From positions 62,001-126,000 of the forward strand of contig JAUJMY010000005.1 in NCBI GenBank assembly GCA_030446625.1: a DNA stretch of 64,000 nucleotides, read 5' to 3'. Numbering within the stretch: position 1 is the first letter of the stretch; every line of letters begins with the position of its first letter. A model generated the notes under the pieces. The model did not search any database and was not told the origin of the DNA. It saw only the letters and a list, made by a program, of their open reading frames with translations. Made by a program: the position numbers and the translations under genes. This document shows, in pieces, positions 3,214 through 29,959 of this stretch. The stretch comes from Gaiellaceae bacterium. GTDB lineage: Bacteria > Actinomycetota > Thermoleophilia > Gaiellales > Gaiellaceae.

Positions 3214-3678
3214 GTGGTAGATAACCAGCATGCACTCGACGGTCGCCTTGAGGGCGGCTTGCTTCCGGCTCCGTCCGTTGGCGGACCATGGGACACGTCG
3301 CATGTCTGGGGGCGGTACACGGAGCGCGTCTTGGCCAACGACATGCTCCTGCGCGAGATTTACGTCTATCCCGGCGGCCGCACGTCTGTCCACCGGCACG
3401 AGACGCAGCACGAGCTGAACTTCGTCGCCGGCGGGGTGGTTCGGATCAGCCTCGGCGACGATCCGGAGAATCTCGAGGACTACTGGGTCGAGCCCGGCGA
3501 CCACTTCCACGTCCCGCCGCGCGTCTTCCACGCTGTCGGCTTTGAGCGCGCGGAGACCGACACGGGTTGCGCGCGGTTCTACGAGATCGTCTACGAGTAC
3601 TGTTCGCCGCTCGACATCGTCCGCGCGCGCCCCGCCATCGAAGGCGCGCCGACCCGCTGGTTCACGGGCAACAGGTAG
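3214..3678 (+). CDS. Cupin-fold protein, phosphomannose-isomerase-type
   Basis: The 154-aa product from GTG 3214 is a single cupin barrel. Metal ligands are visible as HRHETQHE in the first cupin motif and HVPPRVFH in the second, with a conserved PGD turn between them. An earlier in-frame ATG at 3079 would add a poorly conserved 45-residue extension, so I prefer the GTG. Cupins of this shape include type II mannose-6-phosphate isomerases and small dioxygenases or epimerases. Its position as first gene of the rightward NRPS operon suggests tailoring of a precursor or the product, but the reaction cannot be read from the sequence. Confidence 0.75.
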   Translation: MVDNQHALDGRLEGGLLPAPSVGGPWDTSHVWGRYTERVLANDMLLREIYVYPGGRTSVHRHETQHELNFVAGGVVRISLGDDPENLEDYWVEPGDHFHVPPRVFHAVGFERAETDTGCARFYEIVYEYCSPLDIVRARPAIEGAPTRWFTGNR

Positions 3679-3727
3679 CGCCGCGTATGCTCGCTCGCGC
3701 GCGTGTCGCCGGCGCAGGTCCGCCGAC

Positions 3728-6700
3728 TTGACGGAGTCGGGCGCACGGCGCGGTAGCGACGCGGTGTTCGAGCGCAGGCTGGCCCAAGTGTCGCGCCGCG
3801 GCGCCGCGATCACGCCGCGCAGTCGTGACGGCCTGTTGCTGCCGTCGTTTGGTCAGGAGCGCCTTTGGCTGCTCGACCAGATCGAGCCCGGGACGACGAC
3901 GAACACGCTCGCATTCGCGGTTCGGCTGACGGGCCACCTGGATCGCGACGCGTTCGGCCGCGCTACGGCGGAGATCGTGCGCCGCCACGACGTTCTCCGC
4001 TCATCCTTCGTTGACGTCGACGGCGTGCCGCGCGTCGTCGTAGGCTCTCCGCGAGTACCACTGCGGCTAGTCGACGCCTCCGGGAAGAAGAGCATCGGCC
4101 GCCTGCTCGAGAAGGCGGCGGGCACGGTCTTCGACCCCGCGAAGCCGCCGCTACTCGAGCTGACGCTGCTGCGCGTCGACGCGGACGAACACGTGCTCAT
4201 CGTCGCGGTCCACCACAGCTGCTGGGACGCGTGGTCGACGCGCATCTTCTTCGCCGAGCTCGCGGCGCTCTACCCGACCTACGCGGCGGGTCGGCGGCCG
4301 AGATTGCCCGACCTCACGCTCCAGTACAGCGACTTCGCCGCATGGCAGCGCGAGCGGCTCCACGGCGAGCGACTGCGCCGGCAGCTGCAGTTTTGGCGCA
4401 GGACGCTCGCAGGCGCTCCGCAGGCGCTCGAGCTGCCTGCGGACCGCGCACGACCGGCGGAGCCCACGTGGCGCGCCGGTCACGTGCGCCGATTCATCCC
4501 CGAGCGACTGGCGGGCGCGCTGCGCGCAAAGGCCGCGGAGGCAGGCGCGACGCAGTTCGTCGCGCTGCTCGCGATCTTCTCGGCGCTGCTTGCGCGGGTC
4601 GCTAGGCAGGACGACGTGGTCATCGGCACCTACGCCACACACCGGGCGCACGTCGAGCTCGAGCCGCTGATCGGTTTCTTCGCGAACACGCTCGCGCTCC
4701 GAATCCGCTGCGACGGCAGCCGGACGTTCGTCGAGATGCTGCGTCGCGCGCGCGCGACCGTCGCCGCCGCACAGGCGCACAGCGAGGTTCCGGTTGAGCT
4801 CGTGCTCGACGAACTCCGGCCGGAGCGTCGGACGAACCGGTCCCCGGTCTTCCAGACGATGCTTGTGCTCGAGCAGCGCACGCCGGGCGGGAGGGTCGAG
4901 CTGCCTGGGCTTCTAACCGAGCCGCTCCGCGTCGCGCCCGAGCGGACGAACTTCGATCTCACGCTGTGGGCGAACCCTCGGGGCGACCGTCTCGAGCTCG
5001 ACTTCGAGTACAGCCGCGACCTCTTCGACGAGCCTCGAGTTGAGCGTCTCGCCCTCGCTTTCGAGCAAATGGTCGAGTCGGCCATCCGCGACTCGCGCGC
5101 GCCGCTAAGTGCGGCCGCGATCACGGAGCCAAACGAGCGCGACCGCGCTCCGCGCCGGCGGGTGCGAGCGCTGGCGCACGAGCTGGTTGAACGGCAAGCC
5201 GATCGCACACCCGCGGCCCCGGCGGTGCGCGACAGCCGCGGCGTCGAGTTGACGTACCGCGCGCTCGACGAGCGCGCGAATCGCCTCGCACGGCACCTGG
5301 CGGCGACGGGCGTCGGACCAGAGTCGGTCGTCGCCGTCTGCGTCGAGCGCTCCGTCGAGTTCGCGGTTGCCGTGCTAGGAGTGCTGAAGGCCGGAGGGGC
5401 ATACCTTCCGCTCGATCCCGCCTACCCCGCCGACCGGAATCGGCAGGTGCTCAGCGACGCCGGCGCCACCGCGCTGCTGACGCTGTCGCGGCTCCTCGAC
5501 GAACTGCCGCCGTTCGAGGGCTCGATGATCCTCCTCGACGGGGACGCGATCTCGATCCAGTGCCACTCGCACGAGCGCGCCTCGGTGCGGGTGCGGTCGT
5601 CGGCGCTGGCGTACGTCATCTACACCTCCGGCTCGACGGGACAGCCGAAGGGAGTCGAGATGCCGCACAGCGTGCTCGCCAACCTCCTGCACTCGCACGT
5701 CGCCAGCGGCTTCGGCGGTGCGCGCGTCCTGCAACTCGCGCCATTCACATTCGACGTCGCGTTCCAGGAGATGTTCACAACTTGGACAACAGGTGGCGTC
5801 CTAGTGATCGCCGACGAAGAGGAGCGTCTCGACCCCGCGCGGCTCTGGCGGCGCATCCGCGCGGAGCGCGTTCAACGTGTCTTCGCCACGCCGACCGCGC
5901 TCGGCCTGCTGGCGCGCGCTAGCGACGCTACGACTGGGGACGTAGCGATCGAGGAACTCGTCGCGGCCGGCGAGCAGCTCGTCGTCGACCGGCCGCTCGC
6001 TGACCTGCTCCGCCGGGCGGGCGCGACGCTGGCGAACCACTACGGGCCGTCGGAGACGCACGTCGTCTCGTCATTCACGGTGGACGGAGTTCCCGACGCG
6101 CCGACGGCGGTCCCGATCGGGCGCGCGATCGAGGGAGTGCGTCTCCACGTGCTGGACGACGAACTCGCGCCGCAGCCGGTGGGCGTGCCGGGGGAGCTGT
6201 ACATCGGCGGCGCCGCGCCCGCGCGTGGCTACCGCCGACGGCCGGCGCTGACGGCCGAACGGTTCGTTCCTGACCCGTTCTCGCGCGATCCCGGTGCCCG
6301 CCTCTATCGGTCTGGCGATCTCGCCCGCCTGGCGTCCGACGGGTCGCTCGAGTTCCTCGGGCGGGTTGACGAGCAGGTCAAGCTGCGCGGATTCCGGATC
6401 GAACTCGGCGAGGTGGAGGCGGTTCTCGGCGAACACCCCGCCGTCGACGCCGCAGCCGCCGCAGTGCGGGATGTCGCCGGGCGGCGCACACTCGTCGGCT
6501 ACGTGGTGACGCCTTCTTTAGCGGACAACGCAGGAGATCTGCGCACGTGGCTCGCGCGGCGGCTGCCCACCCACATGGTCCCGACGCACGTAGTCTCGCT
6601 CGACGCGCTGCCGCTGACGCCGAGCGGCAAGGTTGACCGACGCGCGCTGCCCGCGCCGCCGCAGGCTCCTCGCCCCGCGTCGGCCGCCGTCGCGACCACC

Positions 6701-7348
6701 GCCGCCGAAACGACGCTCGCCGAGATCTGGGCGCGCCTCCTCGGTGTCGAAGCGGTTGGCGTCGACGACGACTTCTTCGAGCTCGGCGGCGACTCGCTGG
6801 TGGCGACGCACGTTGCCGCGCACGCCGCCGACCTCGGCTTGCCGCTCAGCCCGCTCGACATCTTCCGCGAGCGCACGATCAGCGCTATCTACGCTGCCCG
6901 CGAGGCGCGAGGCGTCGCGCGAGTCGCAGGGCCGCAGCGTCCGGTGGTCGGTGTGTCGATGCATGGCTTGGTGGAGGGGCAGGTCGATCGGCGGCCGGCT
7001 GCTCTGGCCGTGCGTGATGGCGTGGATGGTGGCCTCTCGTTTGCGGGGTTGGAGGAGCGCGCGAATCGGTTGGCGTGGGTGTTGCGTGCGCGGGGGTCGG
7101 GCCGGAGTCGGTTGTGGTGTGTGTGCGGGACGGTCGATGGGCTTGGTGGTGGCGTTGTTGGGGGTGTTGAAGGCGGGTGCTGCATATCTGCCGTTGGATC
7201 CCGTAGTACCGCTGGAGCGGTTGCGGTGGATGGTGAGGGATGCCCGCGTGCGGGTCGTGGTGTGCGAGGAAGGGTCCCCGGCGGCGTTTGGCTCAGGCGT
7301 GCTGCGGGTGGTGGTCAGCCGTACTGGCGAGGTGCCCTCAGCGCCTAA
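3728..7348 (+). CDS. NRPS part 1: C-A(Pro-like)-PCP followed by the start of a second A domain
   Basis: Domains in order: condensation (about residues 35-450, HHSCWDAWS at 162, Ala replacing the usual Gly), adenylation (about 490-985, [20 protein letters not shown]) and carrier (FFELGGDSL, phosphopantetheine serine near residue 1023). The pocket residues read DVQFVAHVVK, very close to the classical proline code DVQLIAHVVK. After the carrier the frame enters a second A domain directly, with no condensation domain, and is lost near 7090 by small indels, ending artificially at 7348. TTG 3728 is the preferred start; GTG 3764 is possible. Without the frameshifts this, the next and the third CDS would be one ~2,700-residue synthetase (3728-11907). 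Confidence 0.8.
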
Positions 7349-7446
7349 GTCGGAGCGGCCGGGGTGGTGGTGCGTCCGGGAACCTGGCGTACGTGATCTA
7401 CACGTCGGGCTCGACCGGCCGCCCGAAGGGAGTTGCGATCACGCAT
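6932..7446 (+). repeat. Long repeat R1, copy 1 (A-domain N-terminal third)
   Basis: 515 bases, nearly identical to 10054-10569, covering the A-domain from its N-terminus to the P-loop and the following PKGVAITH. Relative to copy 2 it has two extra bases near 7088, lacks one G near 7112, lacks one C near 7272 and lacks one G near 7370. Its codons are GT-rich, unlike the GCG/CTC/CGC-rich flanks. Confidence 0.9.
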
Positions 7447-10400
7447 CGCGGCGTCTGCAACCTCCTTGACGTCCAGTCCCGCGAGTTCGGCTTGGCGAGC
7501 GACGACCGCGTGCTGCAGTTCGCGTCGATCGGGTTCGACGCCTCCGTCTATGAAATCTTCGGCGCCCTTGGCGCCGGAGCGTGCGTCGAGCTTGCGCCCG
7601 CGCCCCGGCTCCTCGCCGGGCAGGCGCTGGTCGACCTCCTCCGCGAGCGCGGGATCACCGTCGCGTTGCTGCCGCCGACGGTGCTGCGAACGCTTCCCGC
7701 CGCCAAACTTCCCGCGTTGCGCGTCCTCGCTTCCGGCGGTGAGGAGTGCTCGCCGGAAATCGTCGCGCGGTGGGCGTTTGGTCGCCGCTTCCTCAACCTC
7801 TATGGCCCGACGGAGAACAGCGTCGTAGCAACCTGGGCGGAGTGCGATCCAGGTGCCGCGCGTGTCCCGATCGGGCGGCCGCTGCCGAACGTCGAGGCCC
7901 ACGTGCTCGACGAGGAGCTGCGCCCGGTCGAGCCGGGCGCGGTCGGGGAGCTCTTCCTCGGTGGTGCCGGACTCGCCCGCGGCTACCTCGGCGCGCCGGC
8001 GCTCACCGCCGACCGGTTTGTGCCGGATGTGTCGGCCGACGGCCGTCGCGTCTACAAGACCGGCGACCGCGTCCGGCTGTCACCCGATGGTCAGCTCGAG
8101 TACCTCGGACGTACGGACGACCAAGTGAAGATCCGTGGGATCCGGATCGAGATAGGAGAGGTGGCGGCCGCCCTCCGCGAGCACTCGGCGATCGTCGACG
8201 CGTTTGCGAGTGTCGATGACGGTGACGCGCGGCGCCGGCTGATCGCATACGTCGTCGTCGCAGGCGCGCCACCAACGGCGCGTGAGCTCCGCCGGTTCCT
8301 CGCTCACCGCCTGCCCGACGCGATGCTGCCGGCCGCCTTCCTCGCCGTTCCGGAGCTGCCGCTTACGACGAGCGGGAAGGTCGACCGCGAGCGGCTCGCC
8401 GCCCTTTCGCCCGAGCTGCGCCTCCCGTTCGCGACCGTCCACGACGCGCCGCGGACTCCGGCGGAACGCGTGATGGCAGACGTGTGGGCGGAGGTGCTCG
8501 ATTTCGAGGGCGTCGGCGTGAACGACAACTTCTTCGAGCTCGGCGGCGACTCAATCTTGAGCATCCGCGTCGTCGCCTGCGCTCGAGACAAAGGGCTCGT
8601 GCTCACGCCACAGGACGTTTTTGACCATCCCGTCCTCGTCGACCTCGCCGCGGCGGCACGACCGATTTCGCCGACTAACCGTCGGGCAGGAGCCGGCGAT
8701 CGACCGGCTCGCAGCGACGCCACGGCGCCGACGGATCAGTACCCGCTCTCTCCCATGCAGCTCGGGATGCTGTTCCATACCCTCGCCGAGCCCGAGCGAG
8801 GGGCATACGTCGATCAGACGCTCTTCCGGTTTCGCGGTCGCGTAGACGAGGAGGCGCTCGTCCGCGCGTGGCGCGCGCTGCTTCACAGGCATCCTGCGCT
8901 CCGCAGCAGGTTCGAATGGGAGGATCTCGACGAGCCGCAGCAGGTCGTCGAGGCAAGCGTTGACGTGCCGGTGACGATGCTCGACTGGCGTCGTCTGGCA
9001 CCGGCGGCGCGCGTGGAGCGGCTGCGGGAGCTGGTCACCACGGAGCGCGAGCGCGGCCTCGACCTGAGGAAAGCGCCTGTGATGCGTTTGACGCTCATCC
9101 GCCTCGAGGACGAGGCGTCCGCGCTCGTCTGGACGACGCACCACATGCTGCTCGACGGCTGGAGTCTCGGGTTGCTGCAGCGCGAGCTCGCGCAGTTGTA
9201 CTCGGGCGAAGATCCGGGGCCGCCGCCGGCGCTGGCGTATGGCGACTACGTCCGTTGGCTTCGCGCGCGTGACGGCGACGACGCGCGAGGCTTCTGGCGC
9301 TCGGCGCTCGCGGGGTTCCGGCGCGCGACACCGCTCCCGAGCGGAGGCGGCGACGGCGGAGCCGCCGCCGGGGACGTCGGGTACGTCACCGTGACGCTCG
9401 CCGAGCCGATGACGGCGTCCCTGGCGCGGGTCGCCCGCGAGCTACGCGTGACGGTGAACACGCTCGTGCAGGGCGCGTGGGCGCTGCTACTCGCGGCCGT
9501 GACCGGCGAGGACGACGTCATCTTCGGCGTTACCGTCACCGGGCGCCCCGCCGAACTTGCCGGCGCTGAGTCGACCATCGGGCTGTTCATCAACACGCTG
9601 CCGGCGCGCATTCGGCTCGAAAAAGCGGCGAAGGCGCGCGAGTGGCTGACCCGGATCCAGGATGATCAGTCGGCTGCTCGCCGCCACGAGCACTTCCCGC
9701 TGTGGGAGGTCAAGCGGGTGTCATCGATCCCGTCGGACGCGCCGCTGTTCGAGACACTGCTCGTCTTCGAGAGCGCGCCGTCGGAGCCGGCACCGTTCCG
9801 CGGCCTCCAGAGCGTCGAGGTCGAAGGTGTCGGGCGGACGAATTACCCACTCTCGATCCTCGTGCGGCGGGGAGAGCGGCTCGAGGCGACGTTCGGGTAC
9901 GACCGAAGGCGGCTATCGCGCGTCGACGTGGAGCGCTTCGCCGCGCACTGGCGCAGACTGCTCGAGCAGATCGCCGCGAACCCCGACGCGCGTGTCGCCG
10001 TTTTGGCCGCCAACGCCGAGCTCGCGGCGGAGCCGCCCGTCGACGCCGTCGGTCCGCAGCGTCCGGTGGTCGGTGTGTCGATGCATGGCTTGGTGGAGGG
10101 GCAGGTCGATCGGCGGCCGGCTGCTCTGGCCGTGCGTGATGGCGTGGATGGTGGCCTCTCGTTTGCGGGGTTGGAGGAGCGCGCGAATCGGTTGGCGTGG
10201 GTGTTGCGCGCGGGGGTCGGGCCGGAGTCGGTTGTGGGTGTGTGTGCGGGACGGTCGATGGGCTTGGTGGTGGCGTTGTTGGGGGTGTTGAAGGCGGGTG
10301 CTGCATATCTGCCGTTGGATCCCGTAGTACCGCTGGAGCGGTTGCGGTGGATGGTGAGGGATGCCCGCGTGCGGGTCGTGGTGTGCGAGGAAGCGGTCCC

Positions 10401-10470
10401 CGGCGGCGTTTGGCTCAGGCGTGCTGCGGGTGGTGGTCAGCCGTACTGGCGAGGTGCCCTCAGCGCCTAA
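7240..10470 (+). CDS. NRPS part 2: A (core)-PCP-C and start of a third A domain
   Basis: Recognisable synthetase sequence begins at [13 protein letters not shown] (about 7381). It holds the rest of the second A domain ([25 protein letters not shown]), a carrier with FFELGGDSI (serine codon 8551-8553), and a condensation domain opening with [13 protein letters not shown] and carrying HHMLLDGWS near 9139. The N-terminus of a third A domain follows. The A-domain pocket reads approximately DAYLAGLVVK, for which I recognise no standard amino acid. The frame is lost near 10400 where copy 2 of repeat R1 has an extra C in a CCCC run, and it terminates at TAA 10470. The listed start is only the first start-like codon in this open frame; the natural protein is probably continuous with part 1. 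Confidence 0.75.
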
Positions 10471-10569
10471 GTCGGAGCGGCCGGGGTGGTGGTGCGTCCG
10501 GGGAACCTGGCGTACGTGATCTACACGTCGGGCTCGACCGGCCGCCCGAAGGGAGTTGCGATCACGCAT
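10054..10569 (+). repeat. Long repeat R1, copy 2 (A-domain N-terminal third)
   Basis: 516 bases matching 6932-7446 apart from a few 1-2 nt indels. It begins at PQRPVVG immediately after the C domain and ends at PKGVAITH, after which the two A domains diverge completely in the substrate-pocket region. Two reading-frame breaks lie inside it (about 10400 and 10485), both at C or G runs. Confidence 0.9.
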
Positions 10570-11907
10570 GCGGCGGCCGTGAACTTCATCACGGTCGCCG
10601 CCGACGCCTATGCGCTCGGGCCGGCGGACTGCGTTCTGCAGGTCGCGTCGCCGACGTTCGACGCGCACGTCGAGGAAATCTTTCCCGTCCTTGCCCGCGG
10701 AGGCACCGTCGTCCAGTTGCCGACGGAGACGGACATCCTCGATCTTGCGCCGGAGACGGTGGAGCGTCTCGGCGTAGGGGTTCTCCCGCTGCCGACGGCG
10801 CTGTGGTCGCGCCTCGTCCGCGAACCCCGCGCGCCGGGGACGTTCTTCCCGAGCGTGCACTTCGTCGTGATCGGCGGCGAAGAGGCGCGCGCGGCGGACC
10901 TCCGGCGCTGGCGTCTGGCGGCGCCTCGGTCGCAGCGTCTGCTGAACACATACGGCCCAACGGAGGCGACCGTCGTCGCCACGGTCGCCGACGTCACAGA
11001 CGACGCGGGCGAGCTCGTTCCAATCGGTCGCCCCGTACCGAACACGTCGGCGTACGTTCTCGACGACGAGTTGCGGCCGGTGCCACCAGGCGTTGCGGGC
11101 GAGCTCTACCTCGGCGGCGCGCAGGTGGGGCGCGGCTACCTGCGGCGTCCGGGGTTGACGGCGGCGCGCTTCGTGCCGGATCCCTTCGGGGAGCTCGCGG
11201 GTGGACGGTTGTACCGGACGGGCGATGTGGCGCGTCTGCGGTCGGACGGGGCGTTGGAGTTCCTGGGGCGTCGGGACGACCAGGTGAAGGTGCGCGGGTT
11301 TCGGGTGGAGCTCGGCGAAATTGAGGCGGCGCTCGCTGAGCACGAGGCGGTCGCGGAGGCGACCGTGGACGCGCGCGGCACTCCGGACGAGACGCAGCTC
11401 GTCGCCTATTACGTGCCGCGTCGCGATGGCGAATCGGTGGACGTTCGCGAGTTCCTCGCCGCCCGGCTGCCGCCGTACGCGGTTCCCGCCGCGTTTGTCG
11501 CCGTCGGCCGGCTTCCCCGGCTGCCGAGCGGGAAGGTCGACCGCGCTGCACTGCCCGAGCCCGGCGCGCCGAAGGCGCCCGACGGGATCGCTAACGTGGT
11601 CGAGCCGAGGACGGAGCTCGAACGCGCGATCGCTGCCGTATGGCGCGACGTGCTGGGGCACGAGCGGATCGGCGTCCACGACGACTTCTTCGAAGCGGGC
11701 GGCCACTCGCTGCTCGCCACGCAGGTCGTGTCCCGGCTCCGCTCGCGTCTCGGGCTCGCCGTCCGCGTCCGCTCGATTTTCGAGCACCGGACGATCGCCG
11801 GGCTCGCGACCGCAGTCGCTGCGGAGGCCGCTGCACCGCCGACCGCGGCGATCGCGCGGTTGCCGCGCGTTGCCACGACGCCGCAGACTTCGAAATCCGA
11901 TGCATGA
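10486..11907 (+). CDS. NRPS part 3: A (core)-PCP, end of first synthetase
   Basis: 473 residues starting in frame just before [13 protein letters not shown]. It contains the A-domain core, A8 ([12 protein letters not shown]), the A10 lysine (PSGKVDR) and a carrier domain [11 protein letters not shown] (serine codon 11707-11709). There is no thioesterase, so the chain must pass to the next synthetase. The pocket reads approximately DAELVGTVVK; a Glu at the third position occurs in some codes for basic residues, but I do not assign a substrate. From VPIGRP to LAEHEAV it is identical to the serine-activating A domain of the terminal synthetase (repeat R2). The stop overlaps the MbtH start by 8 bases. 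Confidence 0.8.
11016..11351 (+). repeat. Repeat R2, copy 1 (A-domain A6-A8 segment)
   Basis: 336 bases that appear identical to 15192-15527. The repeat encodes [14 protein letters not shown] through LAEHEAV, the conserved second half of the adenylation domain. Sequence on both sides differs between the two A domains. Confidence 0.92.
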
Positions 11908-12133: not shown

Positions 12134-12868
12134 GTGGAGGCGAGCGCCGCAAGCACGCGAGTCGCGCCGAGCGCCGTTGACGTATGGCGCGTCGACACCA
12201 CCGACGGCGCGGCCGCACCGCGCACGACGCTTGCCGTAGACGAGCTGGAGCGCGCGGCGCGCTTACGGTCTGAGCAGGACCGATCACGCTTTGTCGCGGC
12301 CCACGTCGCGTTGCGCGAGATCCTCAGCTGCTACGCCGGCGGGCCGCCGGCGTTACTACGGTTCGCGCAGGCGCCCGCGGGCAAGCCGTTCCTCTGCGGG
12401 GTCGACCGCCCGCGCTTCAATCTCTCGCACACCGGCAACGTCGCGCTAATCGCTGTTGCCGATCGCGAGGTGGGCGTCGATGTCGAGCGCGTCGTCACAC
12501 TCGACGTGCGCGCGCTTGCGCCCCTCGTCCTGGGCTGCGACGAGCGCGCAGTGATCGGCCGTTGCCGCCCGGACGAGCGGGGGCGGACGTTTCTCCGGCT
12601 ATGGACGCTTAAGGAAGCGTTCGCGAAGGCGCGCGGGATCGGCCTCGGCTTCGACCTCGCCTCTGTCGACGTCTCGCCGGCCCTCACGCCTCCGACGGCA
12701 GGCTGGCTCGCCATCGACGACACGTACGTGCGCGAGCTGTCGGTCGGTACGGCATACGTTGCCGCTGTCGCGGTGCTCGAGGCGCCGGCGCGCGTGGTGC
12801 TGCGTCGCTGGCCCTCGCGAGCCGGCAATGCGCCGCCGCGCCATCGGCCGCCGAGTGGGCTGTCGTGA
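12134..12868 (+). CDS. 4'-phosphopantetheinyl transferase, Sfp type
   Basis: 244 residues from GTG 12134. The magnesium and CoA-binding motifs are clear: FNLSHTGN near residue 95, VGVDVE near 113 and [12 protein letters not shown] near 157. Size and two-motif layout fit the Sfp subgroup, which transfers phosphopantetheine from CoA to the serine of carrier domains. It lies 6 bases after mbtH and its TGA overlaps the GTG of the terminal synthetase, so it is translationally linked to its likely substrates. It would prime the five carrier domains visible in this cluster. Confidence 0.92.
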
Positions 12869-15800
12869 CGCTTCCGGCCGGTGCCCCGGAGCTCGTTGCG
12901 CGCGCGTCGTACGAACAGGAGCGGCTGTGGCTTCTCGCGGAGCTGGCGGGCGACCGGCCGCTCCACAACCTGCCGGTCGCCTTCCGGCTGCGCGGCCGGC
13001 TCGACACGCGCGCGCTGACGCGCGCGCTCGAGCAAGTCGTCGGGCGACACGAGGCGCTCCGGACGACGCTCCGATTCGGCGACCGAGAACTGGTTCAGGT
13101 TGTTCACCGTCCGGCAGCGCCTGCGCTCGACGTCGTCGACCTGCGACGCGCCGCCGGCGACGCCGAGCGTGCCACGAAGCGCCTTTGTGAGGACGCGCTA
13201 GCGACACCGTTCCGGCTCGCGCACGAGCTGCCGCTTCGAGGCACGCTCGTGCGCCTCCGTGACGACGACCACGTGCTCATGCTTGTCCTGCACCACTCGT
13301 GCTTCGACGGCTGGTCAGCGGCGATCCTCCGGCGGGAGCTCAGCGCGTTCTACGCCGCCGAGGTCGGCCCGGGCGTGCCCGATCTTCCCGAGCTGCCGAT
13401 CCAGTACGCCGACTTCGCGGAATGGCAGCGGGCGGCGACGGACAGCGGCGTGTATGACGACCAGCTGGATTACTGGCGGGGCCGTCTGTCGGGCGCGCCG
13501 CCCCTCTTGGACCTGCCCGCCGACCGACCCCGCCCGCGGCTCGCGTCGCACCGCGGGGCGGAGCTGCCGTTCAATCTCGACGCCGCGTCTGTCGCCGCCA
13601 TTCGGGCGGCCGCCGACCAGGCGGATGCCACGCTATTCATGGTCCTCCTCGCGGCGTTCGCAGGGCTGCTCGCGCGACACGCGTCGGCCGACGACATCGT
13701 GATCGGGACCCCTGTCGCCGGGCGCACGCGTCCGGAGGTCGAGAACTTGATCGGCTTGTTCGTGAACACCCTCGCCCTCCGGATCGACCTGTCCGGAGAC
13801 CCAACGTTCGCGGAGGTCGTCGCGCGTGTCCGCGACACGGCGCTAGATGCGTACGACAACCAGGACATCCCGTTCCACCGCGTCCTCCGAGCGCTCGACC
13901 CGACTCGGGCGCTGAGCCACATGCCGGTGTTTCAGGTCACCTTCGGCTTCGAGAACGCGCGATCGAGCCGGGTTGCGCTCCCTGGTCTGATTGTCGAGGA
14001 TTTTCCAGTCCTCGGCGTCACGGCACCATTCGATCTCGGGGCCTCCGTGCGTGACGGGCAAGACGGCTTGACCGGGACGGTTGTCTACGCAACAGACCTC
14101 TTCGACGCTCCCACCGTCAACGGGCTGGTCGCGCGCCTCCGGACGCTTCTACTGCGCGCGACGGCGGACCCAACCGCGCGGCTGCGCGCAATCGAGCTTG
14201 TGCCCGCCTCGGAACTTGACGCAGTCCTTTCACACGGGCGCGGCGCGCCGCACCGCGAGTCGCGGGAGGTGCTACGCGATCTGCTGGAGGATCAGGCGCA
14301 GCGGACACCCGATGCGACCGCCGTCGTCTTCGAGAACGAGGTCGTGTCATACGGGGAGCTGCACGCGCGCGCCAACGGCCTTGCGCACGATCTGCGCGCC
14401 GCCGGCGCTGAACCCGAGCGCATAGTCGCGATCTGCGTGGAGCGATCGGTGGAGCTCGTCGTCGCGGTCCTCGCGACCATCAAGGCTGGCGCCGCGTTCT
14501 TGCCGCTTGACGCCGATTACCCGGACGAGCGGCTGCAGTTCATGCTCGACGACGCGCAGCCCGCGCTGCTCGTGACGACGGAAGCGCTGCGGCGCCGACT
14601 CCGATCGTCGGCGCCGAGCGTCCTCATGAACGCCGCCCAGGCGAAGCGGCGCGACGCTCCGCCCGACGCGCACGTCCTGGCCGAGCACCTCGCGTACGTC
14701 ATCTACACATCCGGATCGACGGGGCGGCCTAAGGGATCGATGAACGAGCAGCGCGGCATCGTCAATCGCCTGCTGTGGATCGCGGACCTGCTCGGGCTCG
14801 ACGCGCGCGACCGTGTGCTGCACAAGACGCCGGTCGGGTTCGACGTCTCCGTGTGGGAGCTGCTGTGGCCACTGATCCGTGGAGCGACGGTGCTCGTCGC
14901 TCCACCGGGGGCGCACCGCGACCCCGAGCGCGTGGCCGCCGTCATCGCCGAGCAACGCGCCTCGGTCGCACACTTCGTGCCGTCGCTGCTGCGGGTGTTT
15001 CTCGAAACCGCATCGGTCGCTCGCTGCGGAACGCTCCGCACGGTCGTCTGCAGCGGCGAGGCGCTCGCACCTGACCTGGTCGGACGGTTCCGCTCTCGCC
15101 TCGGATGCGACCTCTACAACCTCTACGGCCCGACGGAGGCCGCGATCGACGTCACGCTGTGGCGCTGCGGCGCGTCGGAGACGCTGTCCAACGTTCCAAT
15201 CGGTCGCCCCGTACCGAACACGTCGGCGTACGTTCTCGACGACGAGTTGCGGCCGGTGCCACCAGGCGTTGCGGGCGAGCTCTACCTCGGCGGCGCGCAG
15301 GTGGGGCGCGGCTACCTGCGGCGTCCGGGGTTGACGGCGGCGCGCTTCGTGCCGGATCCCTTCGGGGAGCTCGCGGGTGGACGGTTGTACCGGACGGGCG
15401 ATGTGGCGCGTCTGCGGTCGGACGGGGCGTTGGAGTTCCTGGGGCGTCGGGACGACCAGGTGAAGGTGCGCGGGTTTCGGGTGGAGCTCGGCGAAATTGA
15501 GGCGGCGCTCGCTGAGCACGAGGCGGTGAGCGCGGCGGCAGCGGCCTGCGTCAAGGGCGCCGACGGCGAGAACATCATCGTAGCGCTCGTCGTGCCGTCC
15601 GACGTCGCGGCACCGGCCCGGAACCTCGCGAGGCTCGTCCGGGAGGGGCGGGTGAGTGAATCGCGCCTCGTGACGCTCGCGACGGGACTCTGTGTGGAGG
15701 CGATCAGCGCCGCTGAGGCCGCTTTCCTCGACGACGAGATCTTCGCGCGCCGCGCGTACCTACAGCGCGGGATCGTCGTGCCGGACAACGCGCACGTCTT

Positions 15801-17640
15801 CGACGTGGGCGCGAACATCGGCCTGTTCTCGCTTCAGGCTGCCCTCGCGGCTAGCCGCGTACGCGTGTACGCGTTCGAGCCCGTACCGACCGTGGCGGAC
15901 GCCCTCCGCCGTAAGCTCGCGCTACACGAGGTTGACGCCGTCGTCCGCGACTGCGCCGTCGGCGCGCGGGACGGGACAACGGAGATCACGTTCTTCCCGC
16001 GGAACTCGCTTTTGAGCGGCCGGTCTACCGAACTCGAGCTCCGCGCCGCCGCGGTCAGGCGCGTCCTCGCTGCGGACGACGAGGCCGCTGAGCTCCTGCT
16101 CGAGGAGATTCTACGGGGAGAAACGCTCGCGCGGCCGATGCGCACGATCTCGTCGCTCGTCCGCGAGTACGCAGTCGAGGCGATCGATCTCCTAAAGATC
16201 GACGTCGAGGGCGACGAGGCGGATGTGCTGTCCGGAATCAACGAGCAGGACTGGGAGAAGATCCGGCAAGTCGTTGTCGAGACACACGGCGACGGCGCGC
16301 TCGTGAACGCCGCCAAATCCCTGAGAGACCGCGGCTTCGAGGTCGAGATCGCCGAGGACGAGGTTCTTCGCGACGTGGGTCTCGCGACAGTGTTCGCACG
16401 CCGAGCACGCCTCGCACCCGGGCGGCCGGGTGCGAGGCGATGGTCGAGCGGGGCCGCGCTCGTCGCCGAACTCCGGCGGCACCTCCGGACGCGGCTCCCG
16501 GAGCAGATGGTCGCGTCGCGGATTCGCGTCGTCGACCAGCTTCCGCTCTCCCCCAACGGGAAGCTCGACCGAACGGCGCTCGACGTGCCCGCCGCACCGC
16601 CCGCGACGCGCTCGTCGACGCGCGCGCGGACGCCGACGGAGCAGGCGCTCGCGGAGCTCTGGGCGGAGCTGCTTGGCGTCGACGTCGGCGTCGACGACAG
16701 CTTCTTCGACTGCGGTGGGCACTCGCTGCTGGCGGCGCGGCTAGTGACCCGGATCGAGCGCGAGTGGGGAATCGCGATCCCACTGGCCGCCGTCTTCGAG
16801 CATCCTACGCCCGCGGAGTTTGCCACGGTGCTTGCGCGTCCTCGCGGCGCGTCGCACCGACGGCTGCTCACGCTCGCGGGCGAAGGAAACAGCCGAGCGG
16901 TTGTATGCATTCGGTCCTCGGGCGGCGGCATCGCGTGCTACATCCCGCTCGCTCGCCGACTAAACGCAACGGCGCGCGTTCTCGCGATTGCCGCCGACGC
17001 GGCTGACCCTCCCTCGGTTCCTGCGGTCGCGGAGGTGTACGCGGAGCTGCTACGGCGGGAGGGCTTCGGCAACGCCGTCGCCGTTATCGGCTGGTCCGCC
17101 GCCGGAACCATCGCGCTCGAGACGGCGCGCCGACTCGGCGCCGGCCGCGATATCAGCGTGATTCTCGTGGACACGCGCTTGCGGCTGACGTCGGCGCCGT
17201 CGGTGAGCGCGCTGCTAACGCGCGAGTTCATTGCGCACGTGGCGGCCACGCTTCGCGTTGCGCCGACGGAGCTGCGGCCGCGAGCGGTCGCCGGCGGCGA
17301 TGCTGACCTCGACGCACTCGCGGCGGCACTCGTGCAACGCGGGCTCGTCGCCGCCGACGACGCGCGGGCCTGGGTCGAGAGCCGCTACGAGCTGTTCCGC
17401 GCCGACGTCGACGCCGCGTCTGCCTACCGCCCTGCGCCGTTCTCAGGTCCAGCGACCTTGGTCATCCCAGATAGCGATCCGTCTGCAACCGAGGGGCTCG
17501 ACTCGTGGCGCGCCGTCGCGTCGCGCCTCGAGGTGGTGCGAGCGACCGGAGACCATTTCTCGTTGCTCGAAGAGCCTGGCGTGGATGACGTTGCCGCGGC
17601 TGTCCGCGCGGTGGCTCGACCGCCGAAGGTGCGATCGTAG
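12865..17640 (+). CDS. Terminal NRPS: C-A(Ser) with embedded FkbM methyltransferase-PCP-TE
   Basis: 1,591 residues, uninterrupted. The C domain has HHSCFDGWS at 143. The A domain has [11 protein letters not shown] near 613 and YGPTEAA; its pocket DVWHVSLIDK differs by one conservative residue from the classical serine code DVWHLSLIDK. Between A8 ([10 protein letters not shown], ~870) and A10 (NGKLDR, Lys1233) lies a ~270-residue FkbM-family (Methyltransf_21) domain with the SAM motif VFDVGANIG at 978-986 and [14 protein letters not shown] near 1110. The carrier serine is ~1287. A thioesterase follows with nucleophile GWSAAG (Ser ~1411; GxSxA rather than GxSxG) and GDHFSLL (His ~1564). It probably adds serine, perhaps methylated by the insert, and releases the chain. 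Confidence 0.9.
15192..15527 (+). repeat. Repeat R2, copy 2
   Basis: 336 bases matching 11016-11351. It ends about 70 bases before the FkbM insertion begins. Confidence 0.92.
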
Positions 17641-18286: not shown

Positions 18287-19714
18287 GTGGCCGCGACGAA
18301 GAGGGATTCCGATCAGTCGCTCCGCTTCGAAAAGAGCGCGAAGCAACCCTCCACGCGAACCGGTCTAGTGCCGGCAGTTTCCGACGTTGTAGCCGTGCTC
18401 GAGTCCGTGCGGCGCGTCGCACGCTCGTACGGCATCAGCGGGAGCGTCTTGAAGCCCTGCGTCGCGTTTCTCCTCGACGGAAATCTGGGGGCGACGGGAA
18501 GACACGAAGCGGCGTTCGCAATTGCCGCCGACTTGCGCGGATCGGAACTCGAGCGTTCGGAGATCGAAGGAGTCCTCACGCGGTGGGCGATGCGACTCGG
18601 CTACCGCGTACGCGACTGCCAACGCGCCGTAAACAGCGCATTTGCCAAGAACGCCGACGGGACGTTTCGTTATCACGCCCCTGGGCTCGCGAAGCGGAGG
18701 GGCACGAAGTACCACGCAGTTCTCGCGCCGGTCTGCGACGCCGTCGGCTGTCCCGCTAACTGCCCGCCTTTCCGCGACCTTTATGTCGGGCCGCGCGAGG
18801 AAGACGCCGATCGGTTCGACGACCTTGGCTGGCCGAAGTGGCCGCTCCGCCATCGCTGGCGAGCGGCTTCTGGCGTCTACATCGCGCTCTGCCCCCTCGA
18901 GCGGTTTCGCTCGCTTCGGTGTGGAGCACTCCTGAGGACGAGCTACCGGCAACTTTCAACATTCGCCGCGGCGAACCCGCGAACGGTCGGCCGAGAGCTC
19001 TACCGCCTGGATGAGCGCGACGCTGATGACCTCCCGACGGCACTGCTGGCGCGCCTCCTAGCGCCGGCCCTGGTCATCTCGCAGGACAAGGACCTCCTCA
19101 CGCCGGGAATCGCGCGCGCGCAGTGGCAGCCGATCCCCCCCGACGCCCGCGACGTAGACGCGCAACACTCACTCCTCAGCGGCTGCGTTCAGGGTGCCCT
19201 CGTGAGTGGAAGAGCGCTCGCCGAAGGGAAGAAGCTCGCCCCCCGCGCCGCACCAGAGGACCCCCCCCATGCCACGGTCGCGGTGGCCGCGCTTGTCTCG
19301 GCCACGTTCTTCTATTTGCGAAGCGATGACGGTCGCCGACGCCGGACGAGCACCGCAGGCTGGGGCCGGCGCATCGGCGCATTCGTGACCGAGCTTGCCG
19401 TACAGGGCCACCGCGCCGCGCAGCGGCCCGCCGCCGCGGCCTCCGGCGCGCGCGACGAACCCACTGATTTGGAACGTGTCGCCCGGGCCGTCGCCGTGGC
19501 GTCGATGCCGCTTACGCCGACGGCAATTCCCGACGTCGCCGACGTCCCGGTGGCCTGCGTGCGCGCATTCCTTGGCGCGCCGATGTTCACGCACGACATC
19601 TCCGGCCGGTACTCGCTCGGCCGACCCGAACCGAGCGAACCGCTGGCGGGCGTCACCACCTGCGGATCGCAACCCGGGAATCGATCCGCCGTCGTACCGC
19701 CTCGCCGGCGATGA
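18287..19714 (+). CDS. Hypothetical protein with primase-helper (PriCT-like) region and C-terminal winged helix
   Basis: 475 residues from GTG 18287. Residues ~55-165 resemble the helical domain found after primase cores in mobile-element replication proteins: FLLDGNLGATGRHEAAF, followed by an RxxDCQRAVNSAF helix and a cysteine cluster (CDAVGCPANCPPF) that could bind metal. The C-terminal ~60 residues read like a winged helix (ASMPLTPTAIPDVADVP, then a basic beta wing DISGRYSLG). No primase catalytic triad is visible. The remote similarity and location inside a tRNA-linked island suggest a replication or mobilisation function, but this is weakly supported. Confidence 0.45.
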   Translation: MAATKRDSDQSLRFEKSAKQPSTRTGLVPAVSDVVAVLESVRRVARSYGISGSVLKPCVAFLLDGNLGATGRHEAAFAIAADLRGSELERSEIEGVLTRWAMRLGYRVRDCQRAVNSAFAKNADGTFRYHAPGLAKRRGTKYHAVLAPVCDAVGCPANCPPFRDLYVGPREEDADRFDDLGWPKWPLRHRWRAASGVYIALCPLERFRSLRCGALLRTSYRQLSTFAAANPRTVGRELYRLDERDADDLPTALLARLLAPALVISQDKDLLTPGIARAQWQPIPPDARDVDAQHSLLSGCVQGALVSGRALAEGKKLAPRAAPEDPPHATVAVAALVSATFFYLRSDDGRRRRTSTAGWGRRIGAFVTELAVQGHRAAQRPAAAASGARDEPTDLERVARAVAVASMPLTPTAIPDVADVPVACVRAFLGAPMFTHDISGRYSLGRPEPSEPLAGVTTCGSQPGNRSAVVPPRRR

Positions 19715-19721: not shown

Positions 19722-20783
19722 ATGTCGAGTCGTTGGGTGCTCGCTGCTCTACCAGTAGCGGTCGTCGTTGGTCTCCTCGCCCTCGGTGCCTCGACTGTGC
19801 GTTGGGCGGGCGATCGGTTAACGGACGCGGTCGCCGTCACCGCGCTCGCGAGTGGTTTTGCCCTGGTCGCCTGGGAGCTCGTTGCGCTCGCGCTGCGGCG
19901 CGTCGCGCCTACGTCTTTAGCGGGGCGGGCTGCCGCACACGGCCGCCTCGGCGTCGGTGTCGCGTTGGTTGCGTGGGGCGCCGCGCTGCCACTACTCGGG
20001 CGCTGGTGGAGAGAGAGTACCGACCTCTCGTTTGGCGTTACGTCCGCGGTTGTGGCGGCCGCCCTCGGCGCCACGTACGTGTGGACGCGCGTAATGGAGC
20101 GGTCGCCCGACTCGAGCGGCCGAGACGCGGCGGTGGCGGAGCGTCGGCCGCCTCGCCGTCACAGGCTGATCGCGGGAGCGCTCATCGCCGTCGCGGCGTC
20201 GTTCGCCGCCTCGGCATGGGTCGGGTACGCCGAGCGAACGGCGGAGGGCAACTTCAACTGGGAGCTATTCGGCATCGTCGGGACAGCGCTGGGAACGTCG
20301 CTGCTCGCGCTCGCCACTGGCGTGCTCGCGATTGTCACCAACGCCGACGTCGAGGCCAGTCGCGAGGTCGCCAGGCTCACGCGCGAGGAGCAGGAAGCGC
20401 GCAGCCGACCGGTCGTCTTGGTCGAACGCATCGATTTGACGGTCGAGTCGGCAGGCGATTGTCACCTCGAAATCTGCGTACGCAACGCGGGCCTCGGCGT
20501 CGCCGTGCGCGGCGTCCTCGAGATTAGTTACGTCGAAGGGGCGACGCGGCTCGTGCAAGCAACGGCGCGCGCGAGCAGCCTGCTCTCCGGCGAGGCGAAG
20601 GAGGTCGCGGCGCGGGTGACGCCGAGCCAGCCGTTATCGAGCGAGTACCGACTACCGGACTGGTCGCTCAGCGGCTGGTTCGTCGATGCCGCCGACGTGC
20701 GACATGCACTACTCGACGGCCAAACAACGGAACCCGACGAGCGCGTTACGGTGGCCGACCCGCCGGACTCGCTACTTCCCTGA
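19722..20783 (+). CDS. Multi-pass membrane protein, unknown function
   Basis: 353 residues from ATG 19722. Hydrophobic segments occur near residues 5-25, 35-55, 75-95, 100-120, 150-170 and 180-205. They are followed by a charged helix rich in Glu/Arg (DVEASREVARLTREEQEA) and a soluble ~130-residue C-terminal beta-rich domain (PVVLVERIDLTVES onward). The layout, membrane bundle then cytosolic sensor-like domain, is typical of small bacterial membrane proteins of unknown role. It starts 7 bases after the preceding gene, so co-transcription is likely. Its 3' end overlaps the 3' end of the convergent HEAT-type gene by 12 bases. Confidence 0.6.
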   Translation: MSSRWVLAALPVAVVVGLLALGASTVRWAGDRLTDAVAVTALASGFALVAWELVALALRRVAPTSLAGRAAAHGRLGVGVALVAWGAALPLLGRWWRESTDLSFGVTSAVVAAALGATYVWTRVMERSPDSSGRDAAVAERRPPRRHRLIAGALIAVAASFAASAWVGYAERTAEGNFNWELFGIVGTALGTSLLALATGVLAIVTNADVEASREVARLTREEQEARSRPVVLVERIDLTVESAGDCHLEICVRNAGLGVAVRGVLEISYVEGATRLVQATARASSLLSGEAKEVAARVTPSQPLSSEYRLPDWSLSGWFVDAADVRHALLDGQTTEPDERVTVADPPDSLLP

Positions 20784-23108
20784 CGCCTCGAGCAGCTCGA
20801 ACAGCGTCGTCGCGTTCGCCCGTACAGCCCGGCAGGGATGATCCGTCTTCAGCCGTGCAACGACGGCCAGCAAGTCCTGTCGCAGTTCGTGCCCGGCGCG
20901 CAGACGATCGGCGAAGCCGGCGATCGCGGCTTGCGGGACGAGGGTTCCGGCGTCTGCCAGCAGGCTCCGCAGACGGTCCTCGATAGCCGTTTGCAACGGC
21001 TCGTCGATGTCGGGAAACGAAGCGAGGGATCGCGCGGCGTGAGCGCGAACGTCGGGATGGCGGTCGGCGCAGAGCCCGAGCAGCAGTGTCGCGGCCACCG
21101 CGGCGCCGATTACGTTCGTCGCGCCGGGCAGGGTTCGCGCGGCTTGAAGCCTCGCGCCGGCGTTCTCGCTCGTGGCAAGGTCGAGCAGCTCGGCCATGAC
21201 CGCCGCCGGAGCCGCCGCGCCGAGCAACTTCAGCGCCAAGCTCAACGCGCTGGCATGAAAGGCGTCGCCCGAGGCGCCGAGCTCGTCGGCAAAGCCGTCG
21301 AGATCGGCCAAGCGCGGCTTGAGTATCGTTGCGGCTGCGACGTCGACGCGAGTCCCGTCGGCGGCCATGGCCTCGAGCGTGCGCGTCTTGTCGCCCATAC
21401 CGACGAGCGGGTCGACGATAAACTCCGCGAGCTCGCGCCAGGCGTCGTCATCCGGCAGGTGCTGGAGGAGGTGGAACAGGATGAGCGCGACGCTCAGGGT
21501 GCCCAAGCCGTACTCACCCTTGGCGGCGTTCGCACGGATCTCACGCAGGCTCGCGAGGGCATGCGCGATCGCGCGATCGCCCACGTCGCGAGGGAGCTCG
21601 ACGCCGCCGTCGAGGAAGATGGCGACGGTCGCGAGCGCCGGTCGGCGCGACCAAGCATCGCGAGCGACGGCCGCGATCTGATCCGGGTCGCTGCCGGCTA
21701 GCGAGACGGCGACGGATTCCGCGAGCAGGCTTTCGTCGCCGCCTCCGCCGAGGTGCTCTCGCACATACTCGAGCCACTGCTCGCGTACCGCCGCGTCGAG
21801 GTCGGGCCAGCGCAAAGCCTGAAGCGGGCGCGGCAGCGACTGCAAGAGAAGAGGTCCGGCGTGGTCCCGCGCGAGCTGGAGCAGGCGGCGCGCCGCATTG
21901 TTGTGCGCGTCGGCCGCGACGACGCCGAGCAACGCCGCAGCGGCGTGGTGCGCAGCCGGCGCCAGACGAACGAAGACCTCTGGGTCGAGGACGCGGTCGA
22001 GCGCGATCGCGGCCTCCTCTGCGTCGAGGAGGTCGGCGGCATTGCTCAGTAGCGCCAGCCGGGCCGTTCGATCGATGTCCGTCCACGTCGCGGTCACGGT
22101 CGCCGACGTTGTCGCACGCAAACTCTCGAGCGGACCGACGCGGACGACCGTGCGCGCGCTCGCGCCGAGCCCCTTGGCGTCGCCGACGCGGCGCAACAGA
22201 TCGAACGCCTCGGCCAGCGCCGCGTCGCTGCGACCGACGCCGGTAAGCACGCGGTAGCGACCAAGCGCGCGGCGCGCGACAGCAATTCCGTTCCAGTCGG
22301 CGAGTGCCTCGCCGCGATTTACCGCTGCGACCAGTCCGCGCTCGACTGGCTCCTGCGCACGCCAGACGATCGTCCGCTCGTACGGATTCACCAGCGCGTC
22401 CTCGAACTCAGCTCTCAAGTATTCGTCGAGGCCGCTCGCGAGCAGGATGTCCGTTCGGTTGATGACGGGGTCGTCGGTGCGCGGCGGCACGTCCGCTATG
22501 TCGATCGTCCGCTCGGTGGGCCGAAGCTTCTGCTCGAAGCGAAACAGGTTCGAGCAGGCGACGATCCAGAGGGTGCGCTCGACGCCGTTCGCGGCAGGCT
22601 CCTCGCCGCGCGCCGCGCGCGTTGTCGCGATCGCGTCGTCCAGGTCATCAGCCTCGATTGCGCGCATGCCGAGGTGGAGGCGCACGAGCCGCTGCGCGAC
22701 GGCGTCGCTCGTGGACGTGAGGCGGTCGTTGAGGAGCGCGCGAGCGCGGTCGTAGTCGTCGAGCGCTGCGTAGGCTGTGGCGGCGAGGACGGTGGCGACC
22801 AGTCCGAGATCGCCCGTCTCGGCCGCCAGGTCCGCGATCTCCGCCGGCGCGCCGTCCACGCCGGCGAGGTGGCGGCCAACCGCAGCGATCAGACGCCTCT
22901 CCGGCTCGGCGTCCGCATCGGCCGGCGCGCCAACCGCCGCCCACGCCGCACGTTTCGCATGACGCTCGTAGATGGTCAATTCGACGTCGAGGAGCAGCGC
23001 TAGTGCTACCTCCGGCGTCGGCTGCTTAGTCCAAGTCCCCTCGCGCAGGAGCCCGGCCGGAGCGATGAGCGCTGCCAACCACCGCCTCTGGGCTGCCTCC
23101 TCATCCAC
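20772..23108 (-). CDS. Large all-helical HEAT/TPR-like protein
   Basis: 778 residues from GTG 23108 (VDEEAAQRRWLAAL); the longer open frame upstream is low-complexity and unlikely to be coding. The protein is almost entirely alpha-helical. The middle contains TPR-like helix pairs (YAALDDYDRARALLNDRL), and the C-terminal third has HEAT-like units such as RHPDVRAHAARSLASF. There are no enzymatic motifs, transmembrane segments or signal peptide. It probably forms a cytosolic scaffold or protein-binding solenoid. It is convergent with the membrane protein and faces a broken SIR2-like gene on its other side. Confidence 0.65.
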   Translation of the reverse strand: MDEEAAQRRWLAALIAPAGLLREGTWTKQPTPEVALALLLDVELTIYERHAKRAAWAAVGAPADADAEPERRLIAAVGRHLAGVDGAPAEIADLAAETGDLGLVATVLAATAYAALDDYDRARALLNDRLTSTSDAVAQRLVRLHLGMRAIEADDLDDAIATTRAARGEEPAANGVERTLWIVACSNLFRFEQKLRPTERTIDIADVPPRTDDPVINRTDILLASGLDEYLRAEFEDALVNPYERTIVWRAQEPVERGLVAAVNRGEALADWNGIAVARRALGRYRVLTGVGRSDAALAEAFDLLRRVGDAKGLGASARTVVRVGPLESLRATTSATVTATWTDIDRTARLALLSNAADLLDAEEAAIALDRVLDPEVFVRLAPAAHHAAAALLGVVAADAHNNAARRLLQLARDHAGPLLLQSLPRPLQALRWPDLDAAVREQWLEYVREHLGGGGDESLLAESVAVSLAGSDPDQIAAVARDAWSRRPALATVAIFLDGGVELPRDVGDRAIAHALASLREIRANAAKGEYGLGTLSVALILFHLLQHLPDDDAWRELAEFIVDPLVGMGDKTRTLEAMAADGTRVDVAAATILKPRLADLDGFADELGASGDAFHASALSLALKLLGAAAPAAVMAELLDLATSENAGARLQAARTLPGATNVIGAAVAATLLLGLCADRHPDVRAHAARSLASFPDIDEPLQTAIEDRLRSLLADAGTLVPQAAIAGFADRLRAGHELRQDLLAVVARLKTDHPCRAVRANATTLFELLEASGK

Positions 23109-23307
23109 GCTGCGAGCGTATCCGTGTCGGCCGGAAGATTTTGAGCGACTACGCGGCGATCCGAACGGACCCCTCGAACGATGCGTAGCGGTGGAGCGCG
23201 CGGCGGCACGGATGGTTGGCCAATGGTCGCGATCGGTGCGACAGTAGCTCCGTGACCGAACCGGTCGCCCGTCACGATCTCGAGCGCGCCGTGCCGGCCT
23301 CGTCGAA

Positions 23308-23514
23308 GTGATCCGCCTCCTCCACCCCGTGATCGGCCTCACCAACAGCGCGATCGCGACGTTGGCCATCGGGGAGGAGGTGGACGACAATCTGCGCGGC
23401 GGCCTCGACGATGCCGCCGAGTCGCTCGAGCTGGCGACGACGCTGCTCGAGCGCGTCGCCGAGTTCCTACCGCCCGACATCGTCGCGGAGTTCCGCCGCG
23501 GCGGCGGCCTGTAG
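23308..23514 (+). CDS. Possible small helical protein
   Basis: 68 codons from GTG 23308, with an amphipathic heptad-like composition (VDDNLRGGLDDAAESLELA, then TTLLERVAEFLP). It ends just before the SIR2-like remnant and could be its upstream partner, or part of the same decayed gene. No ribosome-binding site stands out. Support is only codon-like composition and position. Confidence 0.3.
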   Translation: MIRLLHPVIGLTNSAIATLAIGEEVDDNLRGGLDDAAESLELATTLLERVAEFLPPDIVAEFRRGGGL

Positions 23515-24054
23515 CTGTCCGGCGCGTCGATGCGATCGCGTTCTTGCTGGGCTCCGGCGCGTCGCACGCAGCGGGCATGCCGTCCGTCGCCGACCTAACC
23601 GAGCAAGTGATGACTGCGCGGCACGCGGCCCGTTGGGCGAAGGTACGTCGTGCTCGACGGACCACCGGCCGATGCCGGGGATGCCGTCGACGCGGCGGGG
23701 GACCTGATTCGGTTCGTGCGCGAGCTGCACAGTCGCGCGGAGAGGTTTCTCCGGAAACACGGCGACGATCGGCAGGTCAACTACGAAGACATCGCCTTCG
23801 CGGCGACCCAGATCGCTGACTGTCTTTCGTTCGAGTACGAGAACCCGGTTCTCGACCCGCTGATCGTCGAGCTCGCGGCGAGATACACGGCCGGCGACGA
23901 AGCCGAGCTCGCAGCTCGCCGCGGAAGCTCGGGAGTATGTAACGAGCACCCGCGTTCGTTCGTCGGGGCGGCTCGCCCTGGCGCCGCACGCGCGTTGGCA
24001 GCCGCCGAAGACACGGACGTCTTGCGCTCATCGAGCAATGGCTCGAGAACGTGA
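23515..24054 (+). pseudogene. SIR2-like (NAD-binding) gene, frameshifted remnant
   Basis: The first frame reads RVDAIAFLLGSGASHAAGM and then PSVADLTEQV, the glycine-rich N-terminus of SIR2-like domains. After about 23635 homology continues in another frame with NYEDIAFAATQIADCLSFEY and then ENPVLDPLIVELAARY, a pattern I recognise from SIR2-like effector proteins. A third frame resumes near 23905 (QLAAEAREYVTST) and then dies out. At least two frameshifts and a missing C-terminus make this non-functional as read. SIR2-like NADases occur in bacterial anti-phage systems, so this may be a relic of a defence gene. The assignment rests on motifs only. Confidence 0.5.
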
Positions 24055-25227: not shown

Positions 25228-25282
25228 TAAAGGTGATGCGGCCCTGACTGAGCGACTGCTGACGACGCGTGACGTCTCGGTC

Positions 25283-25495
25283 ATGCTTGCGATCTCTAGC
25301 GACGCGGTGCTTCGGCGGTGGCGCGCCGGAGAGCTTCCCGGGTTCCGACTCTCGTCGAAGGTCCTTCGGTTCCGGGAATCAGAAGTACACGCGTGGTTGG
25401 AGGAATGCCGACACGGCCCACGTCCGCGCCATGCGGCAACGCGCCAGCCGCCTCGGCTCGTACGTGCACCCGTCGAAACGTTCGATGCCAGCTAG
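25283..25495 (+). CDS. Excisionase-like MerR/AlpA-type winged-helix protein
   Basis: The recognisable domain begins upstream of the first ATG, at LLTTRDVSVMLAISSDAV, which implies a non-standard start near 25244-25260 or a truncated N-terminus; from ATG 25283 the product is 70 aa. LRRWRAGELPGFRLSSKVLR, followed by FRESEVHAWLEE, is the classic excisionase/helix-turn-helix pattern of phage and island control genes. Its 3' end overlaps the integrase start by 11 bases, so the two are probably co-translated. It likely acts as a recombination directionality factor or targeting HTH; DNA contacts are not known. Confidence 0.7.
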   Translation: MLAISSDAVLRRWRAGELPGFRLSSKVLRFRESEVHAWLEECRHGPRPRHAATRQPPRLVRAPVETFDAS

Positions 25496-29908: not shown

Positions 29909-29959
29909 GAGACGGGAGCGACGGGACTCGAACCCGCGACCTCCGGCGTGACAGGCCGG
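29909..29959 (-). repeat. 51-bp attachment-site copy at intact tRNA-Asp
   Basis: Identical to 26662-26712. It includes the 3' half of the tRNA and 4 bases beyond it. Confidence 0.9.

Follow-up and report, generated by a model that had tools for sequence, protein, structure and literature searches.

An FkbM-type methyltransferase within the serine-coded adenylation domain of a nonribosomal peptide synthetase termination module from a Gaiellaceae bacterium: a predicted route to O-methylserine

Introduction

Adenylation (A) domains of nonribosomal peptide synthetases (NRPS) that are interrupted by a methyltransferase between motifs a8 and a9, the O-methylation of serine by such domains, and the presence of an FkbM domain in an NRPS module are all known already. 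The commonest role of A-domain methyltransferase inserts is N-methylation (PMC8949500), as exemplified by TioS AMA4 (5WMM), whose inserted methyltransferase acts on a backbone nitrogen (PMC11355689). KtzH (kutznerides) and ColG (columbamides) are published examples of A domains that carry an interruption at a8-a9 and O-methylate serine (PMC11355689, PMC10127204). KtzH works with the MbtH partner KtzJ, according to a title cited in PMC11355689, and ColG N,O-dimethylates seryl-PCP (PCP, the thiolation domain), the O- and N-methyl groups being added by separate domains (PMC10127204, PMC11355689). In the open literature searched, we found no statement that the methyltransferase domains of KtzH or ColG are of the FkbM family. 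An FkbM-type domain does occur in module 16 of the hangtaimycin synthetase HtmB1, where it has been assigned to O-methylation (PMC10624959). Membership of this family alone leaves the acceptor atom unfixed, since the FkbM enzyme EreM methylates backbone nitrogens in a ribosomal peptide; among FkbM enzymes from characterised pathways, no other is reported to have nitrogen as its acceptor (PMC9259500).

The locus described here lies in a window of 64,000 nucleotides from a Gaiellaceae bacterium, known here as a draft genome (GenBank assembly GCA_030446625.1, contig JAUJMY010000005.1, positions 62,001 to 126,000). Its NRPS termination module contains what is very probably a bifunctional interrupted A domain (A-Ms-A, with an FkbM-class methyltransferase, Ms, at a8-a9) that makes O-methylserine. 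The arrangement resembles the A4-Ms-A4 domain of KtzH, likewise a serine A domain interrupted at a8-a9, which makes the O-methylserine that is predicted here, has an MbtH partner and ends in a thioesterase (TE) (PMC11355689, PMC9866976). KtzH differs in organism and product, and the likeness is one of published description. The A-Ms-Mb-A domain of ColG also carries its methyltransferases within the A domain at a8-a9 and O-methylates the side chain of seryl-PCP (PMC11355689, PMC10127204), but ColG has a second, N-methylating domain, whereas the window module has FkbM only. TioS shares the interruption site, although the FkbM profile gave no sequence match with 5WMM. With module 16 of HtmB1 the likeness consists in an FkbM domain inside an NRPS module.

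Architecture of the termination module

The module is encoded by a single uninterrupted frame of 1591 codons, whose GTG start overlaps the stop codon of the preceding 4'-phosphopantetheinyl transferase (PPTase) gene (Table 1), and the frame is open throughout, including across the insert, as an earlier note made from the sequence alone had stated. The catalytic motif HHSCFDG of the condensation (C) domain is intact (13291-13311), the PCP carries its attachment serine in GGHSL, and the motifs GWSAAG, VDTR and GDHF of the TE are all present. A8 and A9 are separated by a second catalytic domain; the A domain is present in both its halves, and a PCP follows it. Because A9 (LPEQMVAS, 16495-16518) and A10 (NGKLDR, 16555-16572) both lie 3' of the insert, the insertion site is a8-a9, the usual one. 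The placement between A8 and A10 in the earlier note thus stands and is narrowed, since A9 also follows the insert.

Table 1. Features of the termination module and of the neighbouring NRPS genes. Positions are those of the window, except where preceded by L109; residues are those of the module.
Feature	Position	Strand	Remarks
NRPS gene A-PCP-C, upstream of window	L109:16755-19646	-	
MFS transporter	L109:13367-15061		
NRPS gene with AMP-binding and PP-binding domains	1288-3813	-	in window
Upstream NRPS stretch, as assembled C-A-PCP-A-PCP-C-A-PCP	3542..11907	+	three ORFs
MbtH-like protein, 75 aa	11900..12127	+	PF03621, E 5e-21
4'-Phosphopantetheinyl transferase gene	12134..12868	+	PF01648, E 1e-13; overlaps module start codon
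NRPS termination module C-A(FkbM)-PCP-TE	12865..17640	+	domain order by Pfam
Condensation domain	12907..14214	+	PF00668, E 5.7e-93; residues 15-450
Adenylation domain, N-terminal part up to A8	14284..15603	+	PF00501, TIGR01733; AMP-binding residues 474-818
Motif A8 (15 residues)	15442..15486	+	
FkbM (Methyltransf_21) insert, ~250 aa	15655..16407	+	residues 931-1181; Pfam match 15802-16338
SAM-binding motif (10 residues, including VFDVGANIG)	15796..15822	+	
KIDVEGDE motif of FkbM enzymes	16195..16218	+	
Resumed A subdomain after insert (A9 and A10)	16456..16572	+	PF13193 positions 41-76; residues 1198-1233
PCP (thiolation) domain	16642..16830	+	PF00550, E 1.3e-19; residues 1260-1322
Thioesterase domain	16900..17604	+	PF00975, E 2.4e-15; residues 1346-1580

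The insert matches PF05050 (Methyltransf_21) over residues 980-1158 (E 5.1e-15; 56.5 bits, the curated cut-off being 22.7), and a second profile comparison gave 62 bits. Given this score and the end-to-end alignment of its relatives, the match is not a chance one, and the FkbM family proposed by the earlier note on the strength of VFDVGANIG and a second motif of 14 residues, which is found from 16189, is borne out. Across 49 inserts the aspartate and glycines of the SAM-binding motif (DVGANIG here, of the DxGxNxG type) are invariant, as are the K and last E of KIDVEGDE, the other E being nearly so. Modelled with 48 relatives by AlphaFold (pLDDT 91.2, pTM 0.91), the insert adopts a class I methyltransferase fold that Foldseek matched to class I methyltransferases of the PDB, none of them a close solved relative; a PDB sequence search with the single insert gave no match. 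As sequence searches of the PDB yielded no close FkbM structure, one of the A-FkbM-A modules would make a useful structural target.

The ten-residue pocket of the A domain, located both by motif against GrsA numbering and by alignment, is DVWHVSLIDK (DVWHVSLID plus K517), a serine code that is identical at nine of ten positions to the canonical DVWHLSLIDK. The modelling of the A domain together with its insert, suggested in the earlier note, was carried out for A-FkbM-A-PCP (mean pLDDT 85). Among its best PDB matches are the serine A domains of EntF, of the teixobactin synthetases Txo1/Txo2 and of FscH with Ser-AMP (6ea3; TMt 0.90, 49% identity), while the methyltransferase-interrupted A domain of TioS (5WMM) ranks fifth and aligns over the whole length (915 columns). 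Code and closeness to solved serine A domains agree with the serine activation claimed earlier and predict a serine-like substrate.

The predicted reaction and its acceptor atom

By the proposed mechanism, the A domain would activate L-serine and load it onto the neighbouring PCP, after which the embedded FkbM domain, with SAM, would methylate the side-chain oxygen of the PCP-bound seryl residue. The C domain would then couple O-methylserine to the peptide delivered by functional upstream modules, and the TE would release or cyclise the product. The A domain is probably assisted by the MbtH-like protein encoded upstream, whose gene gave the genome's sole MbtH match, and arming of the carrier domains would fall to the PPTase. 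O-methylserine is thus the residue predicted to enter the peptide product last.

The side-chain oxygen is favoured as acceptor on three grounds. The first is the codes of related A domains: hydroxyl codes (serine or threonine) account for 35 of 62 FkbM-interrupted A domains and for 30 of 104 uninterrupted ones from the same loci, loci picked for their serine code being excluded from the counts. This enrichment (odds ratio 3.2, Fisher p 5e-4) serves as a guide only, as the rows are related and not independent. The second is the insert tree, in which the code classes cluster, serine-coded Nostoc inserts lie inside a threonine clade, and the insert of the module described here falls among those of serine-coded A domains (SH-aLRT 88). 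The third is an Okeania locus (L076) with the order A(Ser)-FkbM-Methyltransf_12-A, the layout given for ColG, in which FkbM occupies the place of the O-methyltransferase; since this locus has a separate N-methyltransferase-like domain, its FkbM domain fits an O-methylating role. These observations lend support to the serine side-chain O-methylation that the earlier note had predicted. The family as a whole is not hydroxyl-specific, because FkbM inserts occur as well in A domains whose codes are Asn-, Asp- or Glu-like.

The main competing product is N-methylserine, formed if the FkbM domain methylated the backbone nitrogen of the PCP-bound serine. Both the prevalence of N-methylation among A-domain methyltransferase inserts (PMC8949500) and the backbone N-methyls installed by EreM (PMC9259500) speak for it, but EreM is the sole N-acting FkbM enzyme reported from a characterised pathway (PMC9259500), side-chain hydroxyl codes are enriched among FkbM-interrupted A domains, and in Okeania FkbM stands beside a second domain, Methyltransf_12, just as ColG divides O- from N-methylation (PMC11355689). 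We consider N-methylation of serine by this module unlikely.

Integrity of the insert and of the assembly line

O-methylserine formation would also fail if the FkbM domain were inactive or the assembly line decaying, with plain serine incorporated or nothing made. The window insert does sit on a long branch of the insert tree (1.32) and departs at 7 of the 51 columns that are conserved at 90% or more among 36 serine- and threonine-coded relatives. It keeps the other 44, however, and other serine-coded members depart equally (L030 and L097 agree at 44/52). The insert also retains motif I, FEP and the K and E residues of KIDVEGDE, has a confident model, and shows codon-position GC values (0.75, 0.43, 0.83) like those of its neighbouring sequence. 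A degenerate insert is unsupported by the conserved-column count and by this composition.

As assembled, the upstream modules do not read through: the frame changes near 7.2 kb, and an in-frame stop codon stands at 10468-10470, the breaks falling in the second and third A domains. Over 518 aligned columns, the starts of these two domains (6932-7446 and 10054-10569) show no substitution, and their only differences are four indels of one or two bases, which break the frames. Such a pattern looks more like an error of sequencing or assembly, in a stretch that was duplicated or converted recently, than like decay. No C domain was seen before the second upstream A domain, which may be part of the same assembly problem. 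The first upstream A domain has the code DVQFVAHVV, which we take to be proline-like. With the termination module itself intact across its 1591 codons, we hold inactivity or decay to be very improbable.

A tract of 336 bp (15192..15527, + strand) is identical to positions 11016-11351 in the preceding A domain, the simpler reading being a recent gene conversion or duplication inside the cluster. That this repeat led the assembler to join a serine A core to the FkbM insert of another module is extremely improbable: the exact identity does end about 130 bp short of the insert, but separate trees of insert and A core, both computed with the tract left out, place each with serine-coded FkbM modules of other genomes (14 of the 15 members of the A-core set are serine-FkbM; SH-aLRT 87-88), and the code of the preceding A domain is not one for serine, so that a swap would give a mismatch and not the usual pair.

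Distribution of A-FkbM-A domains

The earlier note had called an FkbM insert in a serine module unusual and had proposed a search for the same A-FkbM-PCP order in other genomes. This search was run, and serine- and threonine-coded A-FkbM-A domains turned out to be common across many phyla. In a tblastn search of plasmids, 20 records had one place covering at least 80% of the A8-insert-A10 query, and in all ten plasmid loci that were read out the FkbM domain was preceded by A8 and followed by A10 within a single frame. A scan of GTDB genomes with the insert alignment returned 80 loci, and about two thirds of these and the ten plasmid loci together showed one or both of these flanking motifs in place. 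More than 50 other loci, spread over many phyla, thus have the A-FkbM-A order at the same site, which rules out the idea of a rare architecture.

The codes of these A domains, the window excluded, were serine in 16 (including Okeania), threonine in 20, Glu-like in 11, Asn/Asp-like in 6 and others in 11. Judged by record title, the serine-coded loci belong to Actinomycetota, Cyanobacteriota, Pseudomonadota, Gemmatimonadota, Planctomycetota and Acidobacteriota. The order, site and serine code of the window module recur in Actinomadura (L030, L031), in Gemmatimonadetes (L029) and in the Lentzea family (L142, L143). The inserts of the first three (L029-L031) are 41-45% identical to the window insert, in clusters that differ. 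Of 299 genomes searched in the Lentzea family, 72 had FkbM matches, and serine-coded A-FkbM modules make up at least eight of the best matches. Several of these have a C-terminal length similar to that of the window module (710-716 aa after the A core in L142 and L143 against 725), consistent with PCP-TE. The search of these 299 genomes revealed no kutzneride-like cluster, and the eight regions read out were without a piperazate-code A domain.

Closer to the source organism, 60 near relatives had no A-FkbM-A homologue over the insert, and among 397 genomes of the phylum four others gave strong matches, one of which (L150) has a serine-coded A-FkbM-PCP. The module is therefore sporadic among near relatives and within the phylum, and this occurrence speaks against vertical inheritance.

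In the FkbM tree the code classes cluster, and a trio of serine-coded Nostoc loci (L040, L054, L055) is nested within the threonine clade (cf. L048). The A core of the trio has apparently been exchanged around a retained FkbM insert, and its position is as expected if the insert acts on the beta-hydroxyl and the A core was exchanged. We also would like to mention that FkbM inserts are present where the A-domain code is Glu-like, of the DTKDLGxVDK type (L034, L056, L064, L067, L069, L078, L081, L088, L020, L024, L028), or Asn/Asp-like (L038, L084, L090, L094, L108); in these the methyl acceptor is not obvious.

In the open literature searched, little description was found of this wider set with Thr, Glu-like and Asn/Asp-like codes. 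We would tentatively suggest, at somewhat less than even probability, that A-FkbM-A domains form a large class of bifunctional NRPS enzymes that has been little described and acts on several side chains (those of Ser and Thr and, where the code is Glu-, Asn- or Asp-like, perhaps on carboxylates or hydroxylated residues), in which the FkbM insert can stay while the Ser/Thr core is exchanged, the window module being a divergent serine member. The window module by itself opens no new question. It is a further member of a broad set of A-FkbM-A fusions found in nature, which could be of use for engineering side-chain methylation. The wider set would merit a survey, for which the window module is not needed.

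Surroundings of the gene cluster

NRPS genes on the opposite strand, one of them beyond the window (Table 1), indicate that the cluster reaches past the left end of the window. Downstream of the termination module, two long ORFs (18287-19714 and 20772-23567) gave no Pfam or PHROG family match. They are followed by a phage-type integrase gene (25269-26585; PF00589, phrog_1), about 7.6 kb downstream of the NRPS gene, and a tRNA-Asp is found at 29913-29986; an integrated element beside the NRPS cluster is possible.
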